NCBI GenBank assembly: GCA_902781215.1
Contig: CACZIO010000027.1
Location: 1 to 39,924, forward strand
Direction of reading: 5' to 3'
DNA from: an uncultured Lachnospiraceae bacterium
Lineage (GTDB): Bacteria > Bacillota > Clostridia > Lachnospirales > Lachnospiraceae
DNA: 39,924 nt
Shown: in pieces, positions 1 to 24,472 of the stretch
How positions within the stretch are numbered: position 1 is the stretch's first letter
Layout of the letters: every line of letters starts with the position of its first letter
The notes under the pieces: generated by a model
The model's database searches: none
What the model was told of the DNA's origin: nothing
The model's input: the letters and a program-made list of their open reading frames with translations, nothing else
Program-made: the position numbers and the translations under genes

Positions 1-23
1 GACAGAACAAGTTTGCTGGACCA

Positions 24-91
24 CCGCCTTTAGGCGGAATCACAACAACGCCCCGGAGGGGCTAACACAAACCACCAGCGGAGCTGGTGGT
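24..91. repeat. Cluster of three hairpins upstream of the protease gene
   Basis: Three perfect inverted repeats follow one another, separated by A/C-rich linkers: ccgcc-ttta-ggcgg (24-37), gcccc-gga-ggggc (50-62) and accaccagc-gga-gctggtggt (71-91). The last has a 9-bp stem with a 3-nt loop and overlaps the only plausible start codon of the protease gene. Strings of short hairpins like this occur at the ends of IS200/IS605-type elements and in their guide RNAs, so this may be the end of an element lying mostly left of the window. That is inference; no transposase is visible here. Confidence 0.55.
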
Positions 92-800
92 CCTGACTTG
101 GCAGACGTGGCAGTACAACGACTCGGAGACGAGCGCGAAGCACTTCCGCGACTGTCTGGACGCCATCCCGAGCGGCGAGGAGATCGAACTGCACGTCAAC
201 AGTGTCGGCGGAGAGGTCGGCGAAGGCGTGACCATCTTCAACCTGCTCAAACAGAAGGGCGAGCAGGGGAACAAGATCACGGCCTATGTCGACGGCATGG
301 CCTACAGCGTAGCCATGGACATCGTCATGGCGGCGTCAGAAATCCACATGGGGCTCGGAACAACGATGTTCCTCCACAACCCCTGGATGTACTGCGAGGG
401 CAATGCCGAACAGCTCCGGAATTATGCAGAACAGCTCGATGCTCTGAGCGCGGCGTCCCGCCAGCTTTATCTGGCGAGGAGCAACGGCAAGATCGACGAG
501 CAGACCCTGCAGGAGCTCATGGAAAAAGAGACAATGCTGGATCCGCAGACCTGCATGCAGTACGGCTTCTGCGACGTCATCGACGACTTCAAAGCCGAAG
601 AGGACGATGGGGAAGAAGATGACGACAAAGACGAGATCATCCAGGAGCTTCGGAACCAGCTGTTCAGGCAGCAGGAGATGAACCGGATGATGCAGTCTGC
701 AGGCATGCAGGCCGGCCAGGAACCGCCGGAAGATCCTCGCAAGGAAGCCGCGAAGCGGATCCGCGAGACACTGATGGCAGCTATGGCAGCAACCAGATAA
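87..800 (+). CDS. ClpP-like head maturation protease, N-terminus disturbed
   Basis: This is a ClpP-fold serine protease of the type that trims the capsid protein during head assembly; it sits directly before the major capsid gene. The protease fold covers about residues 1-165. It contains the ELHVNSVGGEV strand-turn, the nucleophile region DGMAYSVA (usual form DGLAASAAS) and MFLHNPW with the catalytic His. The last 70 residues are very acidic and then charged and helical, as in scaffold-like tails. The reading frame is open only from base 66, because TAA lies at 63-65. The first usable start is GTG at 87, inside a hairpin and without a well-spaced ribosome site. Family members normally begin with an extra beta strand that is missing here, so the true 5' end may have been cut off by an insertion or be restored by splicing. 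The family call is firm; the start is not. Confidence 0.8.
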   Translation: MVLTWQTWQYNDSETSAKHFRDCLDAIPSGEEIELHVNSVGGEVGEGVTIFNLLKQKGEQGNKITAYVDGMAYSVAMDIVMAASEIHMGLGTTMFLHNPWMYCEGNAEQLRNYAEQLDALSAASRQLYLARSNGKIDEQTLQELMEKETMLDPQTCMQYGFCDVIDDFKAEEDDGEEDDDKDEIIQELRNQLFRQQEMNRMMQSAGMQAGQEPPEDPRKEAAKRIRETLMAAMAATR

Positions 801-4735: not shown

Positions 4736-7207
4736 ATGGCAAGCCGTACAAAGGGAATCACCATAGAGATCAACGGCGACGTCACAAAGCTGGACGATTC
4801 GCTGAAGGAAGTAAACAAGTCTCTGAGCGAGGCCGGCAGAGGCCTCAAGGACGTCGACAGGCTCCTGAAGCTGGACCCGTCGAACGTAGACCTCCTTAAG
4901 CAGAAGCAGGAGTACCTGAACACCTCCATCGAAAGCACGAAGGAGAAGCTGCAGAGGGAGAAGGAAGCCCTGGAGCAGATGAAGAACACGGAAGGGTTCG
5001 ACAAAAGTTCCGAGGCAGCCAAAGCCCTGGAGCGTCAGATCGTCGCCGACGAGGAGGCTCTGAAGAAATTCCAGGAAGACGTGAAGAAGCTCCCGACACC
5101 CTTCCAGGCATCCATGCAGGAAGCCGGTAAGAAGGTTGAGGAAGTCGGCAGCAAGATAGAGGCAGCGGGCGGCAAGATCAAAGGAGCGGGCGAAACCCTG
5201 ACCAAGGGAGTCACCGCTCCGATCGCGGCAGTGGGAGCTGCATCCGTGGCAGCGTGGAAAGAAGTCGACGAGGCCATGGACACCATCACCACCAAGACCG
5301 GTGCGTCCGGCGAGGCCCTGGCAGACATGCAGCAGCGCGCCAAGGATATCGCCACGACCATCCCGACGGACTTCCAGACAGCCGCCGACGCAGTAGGCGA
5401 AGTCAATACCAGGTTCGGCCTTACAGGCGACGCTCTGCAGAACCTGTCCGGTGATTTCGTCAAATTCGCGCAGCTCAACGACACCGACGTCTCCTCCTCG
5501 ATCGACTCCGTCCAGTCTGCCATGGCTGCGTGGGGAATCGGAGCAGAAGACGCCTCTCTGGTCCTCGACACCATGAACAAGGCCGGCCAGGATACCGGCA
5601 TCAGCGTCGACAAACTGAGCGACATGCTCAAGACCAACAAGACGGCCCTGGACGAGGCGGGCCTGAGCTTCTCCGATTCCGCCATGCTCCTCGCGAACAT
5701 GGACAAAAACGGTGTCGACGCAGGCACAGCACTCGCCGGCCTCAAGAAGGCTCTGCAGAACGCCACAAAAGAGGGTATCCCGGCGAACGTAGCACTGCAG
5801 CAACTGCAGGATAAAATGAGCGACGGCTCCAACAAAGCCGAGGCATATGCTGCAGCCACAGAACTGTTCGGCGCGAAGGCAGGCCCCGCGATCGCGGACG
5901 CCTGCATGGAAGGACGTCTTTCCTTCGACGAACTGGGGACATCGATGCAGGACTTCGCCGGAAATGTCGGCTCGACCTTTGACGAGACCCTGGATCCGAT
6001 GGACCAGATGCAGACCAACATGAACATGATGAAGGAGCTGGGCGCCGACATCGTCGAGACTGCCGCTCCCATGATCGTGGAGGCCATGACCGCCATCCGG
6101 GACGCCATCACCACCCTGAAGGAGAAGTGGGACGGGCTCAGCGAAGACCAGCAGCAGATGATCATCAAGATCGCCGGCATCGCTGCAGTGGTAGGCCCAG
6201 TGCTCGTAGTCATCGGCACAGTGGTCGGTGCGATCGGCGGCATCGTCGGAGCTGTAGGCGCCGTGATAGGCATATTGGGCTCGCCTCTTCTCGGGCCAAT
6301 CGCGCTCGTCGTGGCAGCAATACTCGCGGTGATAGCACTATGGCCGCAGATAAAACAATTTTTCGATGACTCCGTACAGAAGGTCAAGGACTTTGTTAGA
6401 GACACGAAGGAAAAGTGGGAGAATTTCAAAAACGACACCATTGAAAAATTTACATCCATAAAGGACGGTGCCAAGCAGAAAATCGAAGATCTTCGCGACG
6501 GGGTCGTGGAGAAGGTACGAAGCCTCAAAGAAGGGGCCGAGCAGAAAGTCCAGGACATGAAGGACTTCTTTGATGAAAAATTCGGAGGAATAGCTGACAA
6601 GGCGCAGGAAATTTTCAGCAACGTCCAGAAATTCATCGAGGATCCTGTCGGCACAGCCAAGGACTTCGTGAGGCAGGCCATCGAGGATATCAAGGGCTTC
6701 TTCAATTTCGAGTGGAAGCTGCCGGAGCTGAAGCTCCCTCACATCAATGTGGGCGCCTACATTGATGTCCCGGCTCTCGGCACGATTCCGGATCCGAGAT
6801 ACCTGACCGTCGACTGGTATGACAAGGCGATGGACAAGACCCGCGTGCTGAAGGGAGCGACCATCTTCGGAGCAGCCGGAGGAAAGCTTCTTGGAGGAGG
6901 AGAATCCGGAAGGGAAGTGGTCTCCGGAGAAGACCACCTGCTCGACATGTTCATGAGAGGCGTCGAGAAGGTCATGCAGCGCGTCCAGGTCGCCATGCAG
7001 ACACCTGCAAGTGACACCATCCAGAATGCCATCCGGGCGCTGTCACAGACGGCGCAGAGGGCCGGAGATTCGATTCGCAACTTTAAATACGGCGATGTGA
7101 GCATCAACATCTATCCGACAGACAGACAGGATGCCCACGAGATCGCCAGAGAGGTCGCCGACATTCTGGGCGACGATATGGCAAGCGCGGAGGCAGTGTA
7201 TAGATGA
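4736..7207 (+). CDS. Tape measure protein
   Basis: An 823-residue protein that sets tail length. Residues 1-150 are a heptad-rich coiled coil (DVDRLLKLDPSNVDLLKQ is the usual opening of clostridial tape measures). Residues ~150-420 carry the TP901-type minor tail region, with MQQRAKDIATTIPTDF and the repeating 'M-x-K-x-G-x-D/S' pattern. About 480-550 are strongly hydrophobic, Gly/Ala/Val-rich, likely membrane-active segments for DNA entry. A second charged helical part follows (550-680). At roughly 1.5 angstrom per residue the tail would be about 120 nm; this is an estimate. ATG 4736 overlaps the stop region of the T frame and follows gtaggagg. The end overlaps the next gene by 4 bp. Confidence 0.92.
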   Translation: MASRTKGITIEINGDVTKLDDSLKEVNKSLSEAGRGLKDVDRLLKLDPSNVDLLKQKQEYLNTSIESTKEKLQREKEALEQMKNTEGFDKSSEAAKALERQIVADEEALKKFQEDVKKLPTPFQASMQEAGKKVEEVGSKIEAAGGKIKGAGETLTKGVTAPIAAVGAASVAAWKEVDEAMDTITTKTGASGEALADMQQRAKDIATTIPTDFQTAADAVGEVNTRFGLTGDALQNLSGDFVKFAQLNDTDVSSSIDSVQSAMAAWGIGAEDASLVLDTMNKAGQDTGISVDKLSDMLKTNKTALDEAGLSFSDSAMLLANMDKNGVDAGTALAGLKKALQNATKEGIPANVALQQLQDKMSDGSNKAEAYAAATELFGAKAGPAIADACMEGRLSFDELGTSMQDFAGNVGSTFDETLDPMDQMQTNMNMMKELGADIVETAAPMIVEAMTAIRDAITTLKEKWDGLSEDQQQMIIKIAGIAAVVGPVLVVIGTVVGAIGGIVGAVGAVIGILGSPLLGPIALVVAAILAVIALWPQIKQFFDDSVQKVKDFVRDTKEKWENFKNDTIEKFTSIKDGAKQKIEDLRDGVVEKVRSLKEGAEQKVQDMKDFFDEKFGGIADKAQEIFSNVQKFIEDPVGTAKDFVRQAIEDIKGFFNFEWKLPELKLPHINVGAYIDVPALGTIPDPRYLTVDWYDKAMDKTRVLKGATIFGAAGGKLLGGGESGREVVSGEDHLLDMFMRGVEKVMQRVQVAMQTPASDTIQNAIRALSQTAQRAGDSIRNFKYGDVSINIYPTDRQDAHEIAREVADILGDDMASAEAVYR

Positions 7208-14060: not shown

Positions 14061-14086
14061 AGCAAAGGAGAAAACATGGCAGTATA
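14052..14086 (+). repeat. 8-bp direct repeat at the gene split (stop, ribosome site and start between)
   Basis: The octamer gcagtata occurs at 14052-14059 and again at 14079-14086, 27 bp apart. Between them lie TAA, aaaggag and ATG, all in one frame. If one repeat and the spacer (27 bp, nine codons) are removed, the frame reads on without a break as PYGYAVYDESWEF. The layout suggests a short insertion or tandem duplication that turned one gene into two translated pieces. Confidence 0.8.
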
Positions 14087-17000
14087 CGACGAAAGCTGGG
14101 AATTCCAGAACAACACATCGGCCAGAATGCTGTTCAAATCCGACGACTTCGACGAGATCTACACGGATCCGGAGACGCAGGAGACATATCCCGCCTGGAA
14201 GAACGACTTCGAGGCCAGATTCCCGGAGGACACCTACGAGGACATCACCCAGCTGAAGACCTTTGTCAGCTGGGTGGTCTCCACAGACCGCGACCAGGCG
14301 ACCGGCGATGCGCTGCCGGCGCCTGTGACCTACGGCGGGGCCGAGTACACCACCGACTCTGCAGACTACCGCCTGGCCAAGTTCAAGGCGGAGTTCGCGG
14401 ACTATGCGGAGACAGAATCTTTTATCTTCTACTACATTTTCACGGAGCTCTTTCTCATGGTCGACTCCCGGGCGAAGAACTTCTTCCTGGGCTTCCATGG
14501 ATCTGAGTGCAGCATCGAAGGGATGAGGAGAAAAGCGGTCGCGGAGCCCTACGACATGGACACGGCCCTCGGCACGAACAACGAAGGCTCCCTGGTCTTC
14601 CCGTATGATCTCGAGGACACGGACCACCTGGAAGGCGGCGCGGACATCTTCAACGGCCAGAATTCTACGCTCTGGTGCAACCTCCGCGACTCGCACAGGG
14701 CGGAGATCTCCCAGATGTACAAGACCCTCCGCTCCAACGGCATCCTGGCATACGGAAACGTCGAGAGCCAGTTCGAAGAACACCAGTCCAAGTGGCCGGA
14801 GGCCCTCCTCAACGAGGACTCCTGGTTTAAGTACATTACACCACTCACGGATCCGGACGTCGGCAAAGAGCCGACCGCAGTCTATCTTCCCATGATGCAG
14901 GGGCCGAAGACAGAGCAGAGAAAGTGGTGGCTCTATAACCGCTTCCAGTACGAGGATTCAAAATATAATGCCGGCGACGCCCTGAATGAGGTGATCCAGC
15001 TCCGCGGATACGCCAAGGCCGACATAACTGTCACCCCCTACGCGTCCATCTATCCGACGGTCAAGTACGGCTCCTACCTCGTCCAGAAGAGAGGCTCCGC
15101 AGGCGTCCCGACACTCCTGGAGTGCCCGGTCACGACCCTGAACGACACGGAGATCTACATCTACTCGGCCAAGCAGGTCGCCTCGATCGGCGACGTCTCC
15201 GGCCTTAAGGTCGGCTTCGCGGATTTCTCCATGGCCACACACCTGCAGGAGATCAAGGTGGGCGACGCCTCATCCGAGTACCAGAACGGGAACCTCAACG
15301 ACCTGACGCTCGGGAGCAATGCTCTCCTGAGGAAGATCGATGCGAGAAACTGTACGGCACTCGGCACCGGCAAACAGAAGGCCGTGGACATGTCCGGCTG
15401 CGTCATCATCGAGGAAGCATACTTCGACGGCACGAAGATCCAGGGCCTGACGCTCCCGATCGGCGGCGTCCTGAAAAAGCTCCACCTTCCGGACACCATG
15501 ACCAACATCACGATCAGGAACCAGCATCTGATCAGCGAATTCATTTGCGCGGGATACTCAAATGTGACGACTCTCCGCTTGGAGAACAACTCCTCCGTCA
15601 TCGACGAGAGAGCCATCCTGCACGCCATCCCTTCCGGAGCCCGCGTGAGGCTCGTAGGATTCTACTGGGAGTGCGAAAATGCTGCAGATATCGAGGCGAC
15701 GCTCGACCTGCTCGACACTATGAGAGGCTTGGACGAGAACGGAAACAACGTCGAGAAGGCACAGGTCTCCGGAACGATCCACACCGCTTCCCTCACCGGA
15801 GCGCAGGTGGCGTCCTACAATGCGAGATATCCCTACATCGCCATCATTGCCGACTCCGTCCTGTCCTACCGGACATACGCCGACTGGGACGAGACCGTCA
15901 TCAAAGTGGTCGAGTGCCACGACGGCGTGCCGCAGGAAGCCGCGCCGACAGGCCTCACGAGGCCCAACAGCTCCGATGGCCACTACAGCTACACCTTCGC
16001 CGGATGGGCTCTGGAGCCCGACGCGCAGGCTGCGGATTCTTCCGCCCTCGACAACGTCATCGCCGACCGCACGATCTACGCAGCATACACCTGGAACGTC
16101 AGGACCTACACAGTGGCCTGGAACAACTCCAACGGAACGCACCTCGAGACCGACGAGAACGTGCCGTGGGGCACGGAACCAAGCTACAACGGCGCGACAC
16201 CGCAGAATCCGACATCCGGAGGCGGACCCTTCACCGGATGGGTACCGCAGATCACGGCCGTCACCGGAAATACAACATACACGGCATCCTACACGCCGGT
16301 CTACAACGTGTACTTCTACAACGGCTCGACACTTCTGGATACCGTCCAGGTGCTCCAGGGTGGCTCTGCGACCTACACCGGACCGACACCTACGGACGGA
16401 GACAAGATCTTCACCGGATGGAGTCCGAACCCCGTGAACGTCCAGGGCAGCCTCTCTGTGTACGCACAGTTCAAGGCGAACGTCGAGACACCGACAGCAA
16501 CCACGGCAGACGGCGCCTATGGCGTCGAATGGGACTACTCCCAGAGCTCGCCGGCACTCACGAGGAAGGGCCTCGCGGCAGCATTCGCAAATCCTGCGCC
16601 GGCAGAGGGCAACAGCGGCAGCGGGTCATCACCGTTTGACAACATCCTGCCGTGGTCCGGCATGAAGCGCTTCAATGTCATCGGCTCCGAATACGTCCCG
16701 GAGACGGACAGCCGCTTCGACCAGGCTGCCAATGATACCGTGGTCTACATCCCGGAATTCTATTACACGGCCTACAAGGACACGACAAACAGCAAGTGGC
16801 TCTGGGCGATCTCACCGACAGCGAAGGAAGGATACTGCAAGCATCCAGGATCCGGCAGATACATCGGGCGCTACCACACGGGCGGAAGCAGCTCCGGCGT
16901 CTACTCAAAGTCCGGCGTGACACCGCTCGTCAACACATCACAGACCAATTTCAGAGCATACAGCGCCGACAAGGGCGCCGGCTGGCGGATGATGGATCTG

Positions 17001-17555
17001 GCTGCATGGTGTGCCCTGGAACTCCTCTACCTCGTGGAATTTGCGAACTTTGATTCGCAGACAACACTCGGAAAAGGATGGAGCACCGGTTCACTCGGTA
17101 CCATGGGCGGAACAGATTCCGCAGCATACCACACCGTCAAAGCTTCCGGAGCCCATAACCAGTACCGCTGGATTGAGGATCCTTTCTCGAATTGCTGGGA
17201 TTGGATTGATGGATTCATGGGAAACAAAACGAAGACGTATGCAGCGGCGAACAGCTCCTACGCGGGCGGAAACAGTGACCTCAACGAGCTTGGATTCGCA
17301 CTTCCGAGTTCCGGAGCAATTCATGGTTTCGGCTACAGCGAATCAGCAGCATGGGCCTTCATTGCAGACACGGCAAGCGGATCAGATTACACGACTTACG
17401 TCTGTGACCGCGTCAACTCGAACAGCTCGCTCTACCCGGCCTGTGTCGGCGGCAAGTATAACGACGACGCGGACTACGGGTTCTTCTACTTCAATGCGAA
17501 CAACTCCGCGTCGTTCACCTTCGGCGGCCTCGGCTCCCGCCTCCTTAAAACCTAA
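14076..17555 (+). CDS. DGR target protein: CotH-like C-lobe, B-repeats and C-type-lectin-like tip
   Basis: An 1159-residue protein, probably the host-binding part of the tail. Order of parts: remainder of a CotH-kinase-like fold (~1-300) with DSRAKN (D130, N135) and PYDMD (D160, D162), which match the catalytic loop and metal site of CotH kinases; leucine-rich-repeat-like strands (~390-540); three InlB B-repeat-like units with FAGW, FTGW and FTGW cores (~600-800); and a formylglycine-enzyme/C-type-lectin-like domain (~820-1159, GWRMMDLAAWCALELLYLVE, FSNCWDWIDGFMGN). The last ~47 residues are encoded by the DGR variable repeat. Start ATG 14076 follows aaaggag. Tandem stops TAA TAG close the gene. 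The preceding gene is in the same frame, so the two probably derive from one protein of ~2180 residues. Confidence 0.88.
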   Translation: MAVYDESWEFQNNTSARMLFKSDDFDEIYTDPETQETYPAWKNDFEARFPEDTYEDITQLKTFVSWVVSTDRDQATGDALPAPVTYGGAEYTTDSADYRLAKFKAEFADYAETESFIFYYIFTELFLMVDSRAKNFFLGFHGSECSIEGMRRKAVAEPYDMDTALGTNNEGSLVFPYDLEDTDHLEGGADIFNGQNSTLWCNLRDSHRAEISQMYKTLRSNGILAYGNVESQFEEHQSKWPEALLNEDSWFKYITPLTDPDVGKEPTAVYLPMMQGPKTEQRKWWLYNRFQYEDSKYNAGDALNEVIQLRGYAKADITVTPYASIYPTVKYGSYLVQKRGSAGVPTLLECPVTTLNDTEIYIYSAKQVASIGDVSGLKVGFADFSMATHLQEIKVGDASSEYQNGNLNDLTLGSNALLRKIDARNCTALGTGKQKAVDMSGCVIIEEAYFDGTKIQGLTLPIGGVLKKLHLPDTMTNITIRNQHLISEFICAGYSNVTTLRLENNSSVIDERAILHAIPSGARVRLVGFYWECENAADIEATLDLLDTMRGLDENGNNVEKAQVSGTIHTASLTGAQVASYNARYPYIAIIADSVLSYRTYADWDETVIKVVECHDGVPQEAAPTGLTRPNSSDGHYSYTFAGWALEPDAQAADSSALDNVIADRTIYAAYTWNVRTYTVAWNNSNGTHLETDENVPWGTEPSYNGATPQNPTSGGGPFTGWVPQITAVTGNTTYTASYTPVYNVYFYNGSTLLDTVQVLQGGSATYTGPTPTDGDKIFTGWSPNPVNVQGSLSVYAQFKANVETPTATTADGAYGVEWDYSQSSPALTRKGLAAAFANPAPAEGNSGSGSSPFDNILPWSGMKRFNVIGSEYVPETDSRFDQAANDTVVYIPEFYYTAYKDTTNSKWLWAISPTAKEGYCKHPGSGRYIGRYHTGGSSSGVYSKSGVTPLVNTSQTNFRAYSADKGAGWRMMDLAAWCALELLYLVEFANFDSQTTLGKGWSTGSLGTMGGTDSAAYHTVKASGAHNQYRWIEDPFSNCWDWIDGFMGNKTKTYAAANSSYAGGNSDLNELGFALPSSGAIHGFGYSESAAWAFIADTASGSDYTTYVCDRVNSNSSLYPACVGGKYNDDADYGFFYFNANNSASFTFGGLGSRLLKT
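17407..17546 (+). repeat. DGR variable repeat (VR)
   Basis: This 140-bp stretch codes for residues ~1111-1157 of the target protein and aligns without gaps to the template repeat at +276 bp. There are 12 differences: 11 fall on adenines of the template (17719, 17742, 17748, 17790, 17791, 17796, 17797, 17802, 17803, 17817, 17818) and one on a C (17732, C to G). Resulting changes relative to the template: Y to C, N to K, two N to D, two N to F, N to G and N to L. The changes cluster in the last half, at surface-loop positions expected in a C-type-lectin fold. Confidence 0.93.
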
Positions 17556-17563
17556 TAGGGGGA

Positions 17564-17583
17564 CCGGGGGAGCATTCCCCCGG
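17564..17583 (+). repeat. Hairpin downstream of VR (8-bp stem, GCAT loop)
   Basis: ccggggga (17564-17571) pairs perfectly with tcccccgg (17576-17583) around a 4-nt loop, GCAT. It begins 17 bp after the end of VR homology and 8 bp after the stop codon of the target gene. In the Bordetella phage BPP-1 DGR a hairpin with the same stem and loop lengths just after VR helps the target site receive the cDNA. No T-run follows, so it is a poor transcription terminator. Confidence 0.7.
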
Positions 17584-17682
17584 GCTTACAGGAGACGATG
17601 AGAAACCTTTAAGCACAAAAGTAAAACAAACGTAACTGTAAATCGGGGATCATCCGTGCCCTGTGGCTGAGGTCTGCCCGGT

Positions 17683-17822
17683 ACCGCGTCAACTCGAACA
17701 GCTCGCTCTACCCGGCCTATGTCGGCGGCAACTATAACGACAACGCGAACTACGGGTTCTTCTACTTCAATGCGAACAACTCCGCGTCGAACACCAACGG
17801 CAACCTCGGCTCCCGCAACCTT
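17683..17822 (+). repeat. DGR template repeat (TR)
   Basis: The 140-bp donor copy of VR. It contains 35 adenines, mostly as AAC codons in the VR-equivalent frame, the classic design that allows adenine-directed mutagenesis to reach many amino acids. It is bounded by gt at the left (VR has tg) and tcaaag at the right (VR has aaaacc). The AAC codons that changed in VR are at the 3' half; several in the 5' half are unchanged. Confidence 0.93.
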
Positions 17823-17942
17823 TTCAAAGACGGAATATCAACCAATTGCACGGATGGTCCCCTGGCTCTTGCCAGAAATATCGCCGATTTAGGCAGGGCT
17901 TAGTAGGGCTCTCGAAAGGCCCTGAGGCGAAAAGGAGGACCA

Positions 17943-19073
17943 ATGCCGAAAAGAGTCGGCTACCTCTACGAGCGAATGCTCGACAAAGAAGTGATCAGAA
18001 GCTGCATCATCACCGGCAGCAGAGGAAAGAGAAAAAGACAGGACGTGAAAGAAGTCCTGAGTGATGTGGATGGATACACGGAGAAGGTCTACAAGCTCCT
18101 CGCGACGGAAACCTATGTGCCAACAGTCCCGAGAAAGATCCGGATCTTTGACAACTCGTGCCGGAAGGAAAGAGACATCAAGGTAGTGCCATACTATCCG
18201 GACGGCATCATCCAGCAGCTTGCCGTCTACGCCATGAAAGGCGTCCTTATGCGCGGCATGTACAGGTGGAGCTGCGCCAGCATTCCTGGAAGAGGGAACA
18301 GCTGTGCAGCGAATTATGTGAAAAAGCACCTGAAGGAAGACACGAAGGGAACCAAGTACTGCGGAAAATTCGACATCCATCACTACTATCCGACGATCTC
18401 CAAGAAGAAGATGATGGATGCACTCCGGAGAAAGATCAAAGACGAGAAATTCCTGAACCTGGTCGAGATGATCATTCGGTCCGATCCGGATCCGGGAATT
18501 TCCATCGGATTCTATCTCAACCAATGGCTGGCGAACTTCTTCCTTGAACCGCTCGACCACTTTATCTGCACACTGAAAGGTGTCAAATACTACGTCCGGA
18601 ATATGGACGACATTGTGATCCTGGGCGGGAACAAGAAGAAACTCCACCGGGCAAGGGAACACATCTCAAGATACCTCGAGACAATGCTCGGCCTGCAGCT
18701 GAAGGACAACTGGCAAATCTTCAAGACCGACTCGCGAGGCGTAGACTTCGTTGGATTTCGCTTCTTTCACGGGCGGACAATCCTCAGACGGAGAAACTTC
18801 CAGAAGCTGCGCAGGAACGCCAGAACGGCGCGGAGATTCCTCGAGACGCACAGGAAGATCCCGCCGCACGTCGCGGCAGGACTCCTCTCACGAGCCGGCC
18901 AGCTCCGGCACTGCAATGGCCAGAACATTTTCGACAAGTACATCAAGCCCATCGGCATCAACCGATTAAAAGCTATCGTCCGGAAGGATACGCTCCGGAG
19001 AATGGAGGCAGATCATGACACAGGTGAAACTGGGAACAGGAAAGACATTCGAAGCTGCGGAATTTGCGCATGA
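17943..19073 (+). CDS. DGR reverse transcriptase
   Basis: A 376-residue reverse transcriptase that would copy the template RNA into adenine-mutagenised cDNA. Motifs: N-terminal RT0/1 region (~1-70); KVVPYYPDGIIQQL (81-93); KFDIHHYYPTI with catalytic D144; IGFYLNQ (188-194), matching the IGxxxSQ-type motif 4 that marks DGR enzymes instead of QGxxxSP; and motif 5 as N220-M-D222-D223. The first position of YxDD is usually an aromatic residue; here codon AAT replaces an expected TAT/TAC, one base change away. VDFVGFRFF (motif 7 area) follows. Ribosome site aaaaggagg precedes ATG 17943. The 3' end overlaps the next gene by 59 bp. No maturase or endonuclease domain is present, which argues against a group II intron origin. 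Confidence 0.9.
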   Translation: MPKRVGYLYERMLDKEVIRSCIITGSRGKRKRQDVKEVLSDVDGYTEKVYKLLATETYVPTVPRKIRIFDNSCRKERDIKVVPYYPDGIIQQLAVYAMKGVLMRGMYRWSCASIPGRGNSCAANYVKKHLKEDTKGTKYCGKFDIHHYYPTISKKKMMDALRRKIKDEKFLNLVEMIIRSDPDPGISIGFYLNQWLANFFLEPLDHFICTLKGVKYYVRNMDDIVILGGNKKKLHRAREHISRYLETMLGLQLKDNWQIFKTDSRGVDFVGFRFFHGRTILRRRNFQKLRRNARTARRFLETHRKIPPHVAAGLLSRAGQLRHCNGQNIFDKYIKPIGINRLKAIVRKDTLRRMEADHDTGETGNRKDIRSCGICA

Positions 19074-24023: not shown

Positions 24024-24127
24024 AATGTTTGATTCGTCAGAACAAATCAATGGTGATGATAATGACGTGTCGCCAGACTCGAACCGTGATGGGTTCGCCT
24101 GAGAGGGTTCGACTGTGACCCGTCCAC
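24024..24127. other. Phage-host junction next to the tmRNA 3' end
   Basis: Non-coding. It holds a small hairpin (cgaacc / ggttcg, about 24080-24097) and a direct repeat gggttcg at 24091 and 24105, which resembles the T-arm sequence of tRNA-like molecules, as does the gggaatcgaaccc in the tmRNA itself at 24138-24150. The right attachment site should lie here or in the tmRNA 3' end. It cannot be fixed without the left end of the prophage. Confidence 0.45.
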
Positions 24128-24472
24128 TGGATTAGGCGGGAATCGAACCCGCGTCCAAAAGCCCATTCAGTGTACTTCTACGATCATATCCTGTTCTTGC
24201 GGTTGCCCATTTCCCTCATCCGGCGAGAGAACAGTCAATCTGGCCGGTTTGGTAGCTTCATCATACGCCCATAGCCGCAAAGCTTAAGCTATGTCGTTTC
24301 CCGCTATTTTGATGCCGGATCCGGAAGATGCGGGTTTCCTCCGGGCGACACGCAGCAATTAAGCTGCGAGTGCTACTCTATCGTTAGCGTTTATTTTTAA
24401 TTTTGCCGTTTGACGCTCGGCTCCGGATCGCTTCTCCACCTGCAAGACCCCTGTCGAAACCTTTACTAACCC
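24128..24472 (-). ncRNA. ssrA: tmRNA (transfer-messenger RNA)
   Basis: The RNA rescues stalled ribosomes by adding a degradation tag. On the minus strand the 5' end gggttag (24466-24472) pairs with ctaatcc at the 3' end (24129-24135), giving a 7-bp acceptor stem with one G-U pair, with discriminator A at 24128. The 5' part has ggtttcgacaggg and the 3' T-arm has gggttcgattccc, both typical of tmRNA. The tag frame is at 24359-24406: GCA resume codon, peptide AKLKINANDRVALAA and TAA stop. The 3' CCA does not seem to be encoded. The gene lies against the prophage end, so it is the likely integration site. Confidence 0.93.

Follow-up and report, generated by a model that had tools for sequence, protein, structure and literature searches.

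The DGR locus

The window, a stretch of 39,924 nucleotides (nt) on contig CACZIO010000027.1 of an uncultured Lachnospiraceae bacterium, carries a diversity-generating retroelement (DGR) within a prophage. A tail gene ending in a variable repeat (VR1) is followed by a template repeat (TR) and a reverse transcriptase (RT) gene, and a second variable repeat (VR2) lies on another contig of the same genome, here called C34. The tail gene (target 1, 14076..17555; forward strand, like the window features of the element given below) is an open reading frame (ORF) for a protein of 1159 amino acids (aa). Its residues 7-592 match phrog_14959, of unknown function, and residues 803-1157, the C-terminal domain that ends in VR1, match phrog_5302 (tail).

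VR1 (17407..17546) is a 140-nt copy of TR (17683..17822), with 91% identity and a start-to-start spacing of 276; six bases separate its end from the stop codon of the tail gene. The two repeats differ at 12 sites, 11 of which are adenines in TR (hypergeometric p = 6.1e-7), and the adenine changes are spread over seven codons. The repeat length, the spacing, the counts of differences and the seven codons had been given in a preliminary description of this DNA and were reproduced. TRs similar to that of the window were found in 11 IMG/VR loci.

The 3' end of VR1 is a conserved GC-rich stretch (17529..17546), CTCGGCTCCCGC followed by CTCCTT, that resembles an initiation of mutagenic homing (IMH) site. 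Positions 17541-17542 in this stretch are CT in VR1 and AA in TR. The equivalent positions are CT in 14/14 VRs compared (8 distinct VR1 and 6 VR2), their TRs having AA, AT or AC. These two differences look like those of a fixed 3' end (IMH versus IMH*, as in phage BPP-1) and unlike the outcome of mutagenesis. Because CT is fixed in all the VRs compared, nine adenine changes, not eleven, count in VR1; the earlier figure of eleven stands as a count of differences and falls to nine as a count of mutations. Without the two positions, 9/33 adenines and 1/101 other sites are changed (p = 1.1e-5). An exact-pattern scan for the VR end plus hairpin (17 stretches, plus four further contigs) was excluded from the changed-site counts, and from the fixed-CT count since the pattern itself includes those letters.

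A hairpin or cruciform (17564..17583) starts 8 bases past the VR1 stop codon and consists of an 8-bp stem, CCGGGGGA/TCCCCCGG, and the loop GCAT. Folded as DNA it reaches -11.3 kcal/mol, and none of 200 shuffles was as good. The stem is kept in relatives and the 4-nt loop is variable (GCAT, GTAT, GAAT, GCCT and others).

The RT gene (17943..19073) encodes 376 aa with the motifs IGFYLNQ and NMDD. It was assigned by its match to phrog_1423, reverse transcriptase (E 1.4e-93), and by alignment with the RT of BPP-1 and other RTs. Motif 4 of DGR RTs is of the type IGxxxSQ; in the alignment with the BPP-1 RT the window has N where S is usual, which confirms the IGxxxNQ motif noted earlier for an RT following TR. 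The ORF is intact and is 96-98% identical to the nine loci matched full-length at that level (L007-L014, L016). Within the genus the RT was found in 2/62 genomes, own genome included.

Variation among related phages

Searching IMG/VR with the window RT gave 17 loci, of which 11 have a TR resembling that of the window. The count of changed VR1 sites took in 8 distinct TR-VR1 pairs, one of them from the window, at positions 1-134; L010 was dropped as identical to L009, and L011, L013 and L015 have a TR with no VR1 pair in the pieces examined. In this set 122/273 TR-adenine sites are changed versus 3/799 other sites. The changed adenine sites read mostly G in VR1 (81), then T (38) and C (3).

Two of the relatives, L007 and L012, have identical TRs and not one difference across the 600 bp 5' of the VR. 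Their VRs differ at 16 sites, and 16/16 are at TR adenines. Across the 5730 bases that they share there are 38 differences: the 16 in the VR, 17 clustered at L007 2607-2766, and the remaining 5 at the far end.

These comparisons bear out the adenine-directed retrohoming proposed in the preliminary description, which had named two patterns that would speak for ordinary divergence: equal change at non-adenine VR sites among relatives, and joint drift of TR and VR. Neither pattern is seen, the former in view of the 8 distinct pairs and the latter in view of L007 and L012. On this comparative evidence the DGR lineage is judged to be active.

A second target in the early region

With TR as the query, six matches were obtained in the own genome: TR itself, VR1, C34 22142-22259, and three short ones (E 0.1 to 0.8). 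The match on C34, VR2, shares 81% identity with TR across 118 bases (E 2e-26) and lies at the end of a 391-aa ORF (target 2, C34 21093-22268) in the early region, between a repressor-like gene and replication/packaging genes. A hairpin with the same stem, CCGGGGGA/TCCCCCGG, follows VR2 and reaches -10.6 kcal/mol as DNA. Target 2 matches phrog_5302 (tail), as the end of target 1 does; it does not match the family of the N-terminal part of target 1. The domains of the two targets are homologous and 47-50% identical. The possibility that VR2 belongs to a second prophage was ruled out, as C34 and the window contig overlap.

VR2 in the own genome is changed at 17/27 adenines, and the six VR2s compared with their own-genome TRs are changed at 83/172 TR-adenine sites. 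In the four genomes in which VR1 and VR2 were set side by side, the coinciding changes, observed/expected, are 6/5.7, 9/9.1, 3/4.0 and 9/7.4; the changes of the two repeats thus appear to overlap about as independence predicts. The sequences show that two related protein domains vary independently of each other, with the changes directed to adenines.

Five of the eight phage records searched (G001, G002, G005, G006, G008) carry a remote VR2. The other three, all shorter than G002, gave matches only to TR and VR1, and one of them (G007) stops within the gene directly before VR2. VR2 is also present in records whose RTs share merely 74-76% identity with that of the window. A relative of target 2 was found in 2/200 genomes of the family, own genome included, and tblastn of target 2 against phages gave four records at 30-34% identity, none of them Faecalibacterium-named.

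The DGR had been called complete from its VR, TR and RT; these three parts stand, and the term understated the element, which also has a second VR on another contig, a hairpin and an RNA structure in the TR-RT spacer. VR1 likely serves to vary what the tail tip binds. Target 1 is putatively the receptor-binding tip, and its variation may change host range, as had been presumed. VR2 most likely serves to vary a second phage binding protein, in the virion or in the lysogen. DGR target domains are usually of the C-type lectin fold. A profile search of the PDB with the target domain gave a single weak match (E 0.16), and a Pfam search with 11 members of the target 1 C-terminal alignment matched no family.

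Two genes 5' of VR2 (C34 19907-20416) lies a small protein that has, by eye, a signal-peptide-like start and wall-binding-like repeats. A relative of it, 37-99% identical, is present in 6/6 records compared.

The spacer RNA and the accessory protein

The spacer between TR and RT contains the RNA RT-18 (RF03021; 17863..17937), which scores 70.7 bits against a gathering score of 41.3 and is probably the structured 3' part of the template RNA. It is present in all 11 loci L007-L017. In an alignment of 13 sequences, read against the Rfam structure fitted to the window, 14/17 pairs are changed on both sides, and 90% of the cells pair versus 28-45% with the partners slid.

Eighteen loci were scanned for an adenine-biased repeat. 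Twelve carry RT-18 (L079 among them below the gathering score), and ten of these have a TR/VR pair; the exceptions, in the pieces examined, are Lactobacillus phage LBR48 and L015. Other Rfam RNAs lie between TR and RT in p00 (RT-3; L062), BPP-1 (Phage_DGR; L060), Epona (RT-4; L061) and L023 (RT-17), and a TR/VR pair was found in all four. Two loci have no Rfam match in the spacer, Arawn with a TR/VR pair and L064 without. L018 and L019 were left out of the RNA-family search. RT-18 here and RT-3, RT-4 and RT-17 in other phages all occupy the space between TR and RT, which suggests that these Rfam families belong to the template RNAs of DGRs. Within the class, RT-18 was found in 5/391 genomes, own genome included, one of the five being below the gathering score. 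A literature search, which did not cover the original description of RT-18, found no link between RT-18 and DGRs; that description is reportedly the work of Weinberg et al. in 2017.

Not all DGRs have Avd, hence it is not a defining feature. The accessory-protein search covered Avd alone, by the models PF22296 and PF05635, each of which gave one own-genome match far below the cut-off. Avd is required in BPP-1, according to the part of that work bearing on it (PMC12875486).

A separate DGR was seen in L076 (G234; 5930-6045 and upstream), where one TR has two VRs 5' of it; 15/15 and 26/34 of their differences are at TR adenines.

The prophage

The last 99 bases of C34 are identical to window 1..99, and both contigs have matches in phage record G002 (44,218 bases). 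The two contigs are therefore taken as one prophage, about 44.4 kb long as estimated from the ends found, with its insert included. Siphovirus-like families are present (major tail protein, Dit, tape measure, BppU, portal, protease), and no tail sheath was found among the phage proteins searched. The left end carries a serine recombinase. The evidence fits a siphovirus-like, integrated, temperate phage. The term siphophage used earlier thus agrees with the protein families and misses that the phage is an integrated prophage; "clostridial" is borne out solely to the extent that the host carries a Gram-positive-type PolC gene (C34, TIGR01405). PolC of this type is a mark of Bacillota, with which the putative placement of the host fits.

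The right end of the prophage overlaps the 3' end of the host transfer-messenger RNA (tmRNA) gene (24125-24472, reverse strand). G002 matches window 24044-24140 and also C34 from 14951 onward, and the 13 bases shared by these two matches define a possible right attachment core (24128..24140). Over these positions 12/13 bases are alike in the two ends of the prophage, a match that is weak alone (E 2.1). A tmRNA gene at the right end contrasts with the serine type of the recombinase at the left.

An IS200-like transposase gene (C34 34733-35152, PF01797) adjoins the head protease. The element spans C34 34588-35290, on to window 98, and is missing from G002, which is uninterrupted there. Because of this insertion next to the head protease, the present prophage copy may be unable to make phage. 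An Rfam search of the insert end on C34 gave no match.

Two other features were observed. The early region has a tRNA-like gene (C34 19136-19213; L025 1136-1213) to which ARAGORN assigns the four-base anticodon atca. A phage protein at window 21443-22993 matches lysis families and, below curated cut-offs, also ComEC and metallo-beta-lactamase-fold models.

Mechanism and alternative explanations

The locus is best explained as a two-target DGR that belongs to an active lineage and resides in a temperate, siphovirus-like prophage, a reading to which we give a probability of about 0.92. By analogy with BPP-1, an RNA containing TR and the RT-18 spacer would be transcribed, and the RT would copy the TR part with errors opposite template adenines. 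The resulting complementary DNA would replace two stretches of the same prophage: VR1, with which the tail gene ends, and VR2, which closes an early-region gene. The GC-rich 3' end common to both VRs and the hairpin after each would mark the target sites. Direct tests found the adenine-biased TR/VR pair, the RT next to TR, and a VR at the 3' end of a coding sequence for both VR1 and VR2. A GC-rich 3' end (IMH) at which VR and TR differ in a fixed way, and a hairpin or cruciform after the VR, with a stem of 7-10 bp and a 4-nt loop, were found as well. Of the DGR features that gave a clear result, all were found save Avd.

Several observations weigh against this reading. The motif of the RT is NMDD where YMDD/YxDD is expected. 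The loops of the hairpins do not fit the consensus GRNA, as given in part of the account of the DGR hairpin (PMC3240598), and the VR2 hairpin was equalled by 6/200 shuffles. Neither Avd model gave a match over its cut-off in any of five sequence sets (own genome and four phage records). AlphaFold2 returned a mean predicted local distance difference test score (pLDDT) of 31.9 for the VR1 C-terminal region (11 sequences) and 35.7 for the VR2 protein (8 sequences). In the window, VR1 has a non-adenine difference, its only one, a C->G at 17456 in an eighth codon. When VR1 of the window is compared with five others, 6 to 8 of 25 to 28 differences lie off the adenine sites of both TRs; the TRs of those five pairs differ from that of the window at 7 to 10 sites. 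The six VR2s are changed at 15/526 non-adenine sites, and the IS200-like gene adjoins the head protease.

The substitution in NMDD is shared. N replaces the YxDD tyrosine in the window, in nine close relatives that were aligned (L007-L009, L012-L017), and in L018, L063 and LBR48; Y is kept in ten other loci matched by the motif search, and four (L022, L064, L065, L078) gave no match. Since the lineage looks active from its sequences, the tyrosine seems not to be needed in this RT lineage.

An origin of TR and VR as the drifted copies of an ordinary duplication, or of VR variation in recombination between phages, could draw on the TR alleles of the 11 relatives, which differ from that of the window at 2 to 22 of 140 sites, and on the exchange between phages that seems to occur. 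Two of the six VR2s fit the TR of another phage better than their own: with the TR of L014 in place of the own-genome TR, the non-adenine mismatches go from 3 to 1 for the own VR2 and from 10 to 1 for that of G005, suggesting that phages have exchanged TR or VR2. The adenine bias of the changes over the 8 distinct pairs refutes drift and recombination as the main cause, and L007 and L012, with identical upstream flanks and all VR differences at TR adenines, leave such an origin hardly credible. It is also very improbable that VR2 is no DGR target and arose as a copy of VR1 by gene conversion or duplication. The homology of the two protein domains is what such copying would give, but VR2 has its own GC-rich end and hairpin, is kept alongside the more distant RTs, and is changed at TR adenines that coincide with those of VR1 at the chance rate. 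Gene conversion between VR1 and VR2 was rejected on this chance-level coincidence in the four genomes.

A DGR that was formerly active and is now a fossil in this prophage is unlikely. The IS200-like insertion would agree with it, as would the number of adenine-site differences between TR and VR1, which is 11 in the window versus 14 to 20 in the other eight pairs (fixed positions counted throughout). Against it stand the intact RT ORF with its close full-length relatives and the many adenines changed in the own-genome VR2.

Relation to known DGRs

The element resembles that of BPP-1 (mtd-avd-TR-brt) in having a tail gene with a VR at its 3' end, an RT that comes after TR on the same strand, an adenine bias (17/17 differences in BPP-1) and, between TR and RT, an Rfam RNA (in BPP-1 this is Phage_DGR, RF03022). 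A hairpin with 8-bp repeats after the VR is likewise described for BPP-1 in part of PMC3240598. It differs from BPP-1 in that no Avd was found, the spacer RNA is RT-18, there are two targets, the hairpin loop is GCAT instead of GRNA, and NMDD replaces YMDD. Lactobacillus phage LBR48 has an RT 38% identical to that of the window, an RT-18 RNA, and N for Y in motif 5 (NIDD); unlike the window it has no TR/VR pair in the 7859 of 48211 bases examined.

Phage DGRs with two targets, the second of them distal, have been published before, and the present locus is another case. The Quimbyvirus DGR, as far as the portion of PMC8008677 dealing with it goes, also has two VRs, one in the structural module and the other in a distal, presumably non-structural gene. 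Quimbyvirus is a phage of Bacteroides, its RT is in three overlapping frames, and its second target is on the opposite strand beside defence-related genes. The Faecalibacterium prophages Lelie, Lagaffe_CP and CP11, likened here by description only from part of PMC11792537, are also temperate and have a second VR; Lelie and CP11 share with the present phage one large and one small target protein. Four human gut prophage species, again by description only and from part of PMC12629997, have a second VR distal from the RT. Phages nd4 and nd12 carry two-target DGRs according to part of PMC10743442. The DGR survey of Roux et al. would miss remote targets, going by the portion of its text on this point (PMC8144416).

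Biological significance

In this prophage one template would feed two far-apart targets, and near-identical phages reveal which parts are changed and which are fixed. It is a tentative proposal that a single DGR, with an RT-18 RNA and a tyrosine-less RT and without Avd, diversifies both the virion tail tip, made late, and a free-standing 391-aa protein that acts in the lysogen. If this is true, the two homologous binding domains would be at work at different times and places, and the 391-aa early or lysogeny protein, which lacks the tail anchor, would have its role inside the lysogen or at its surface, for example in superinfection control or another phage-host conflict. The published papers leave the role of distal phage DGR targets open, and a second target in the early region makes that role testable.

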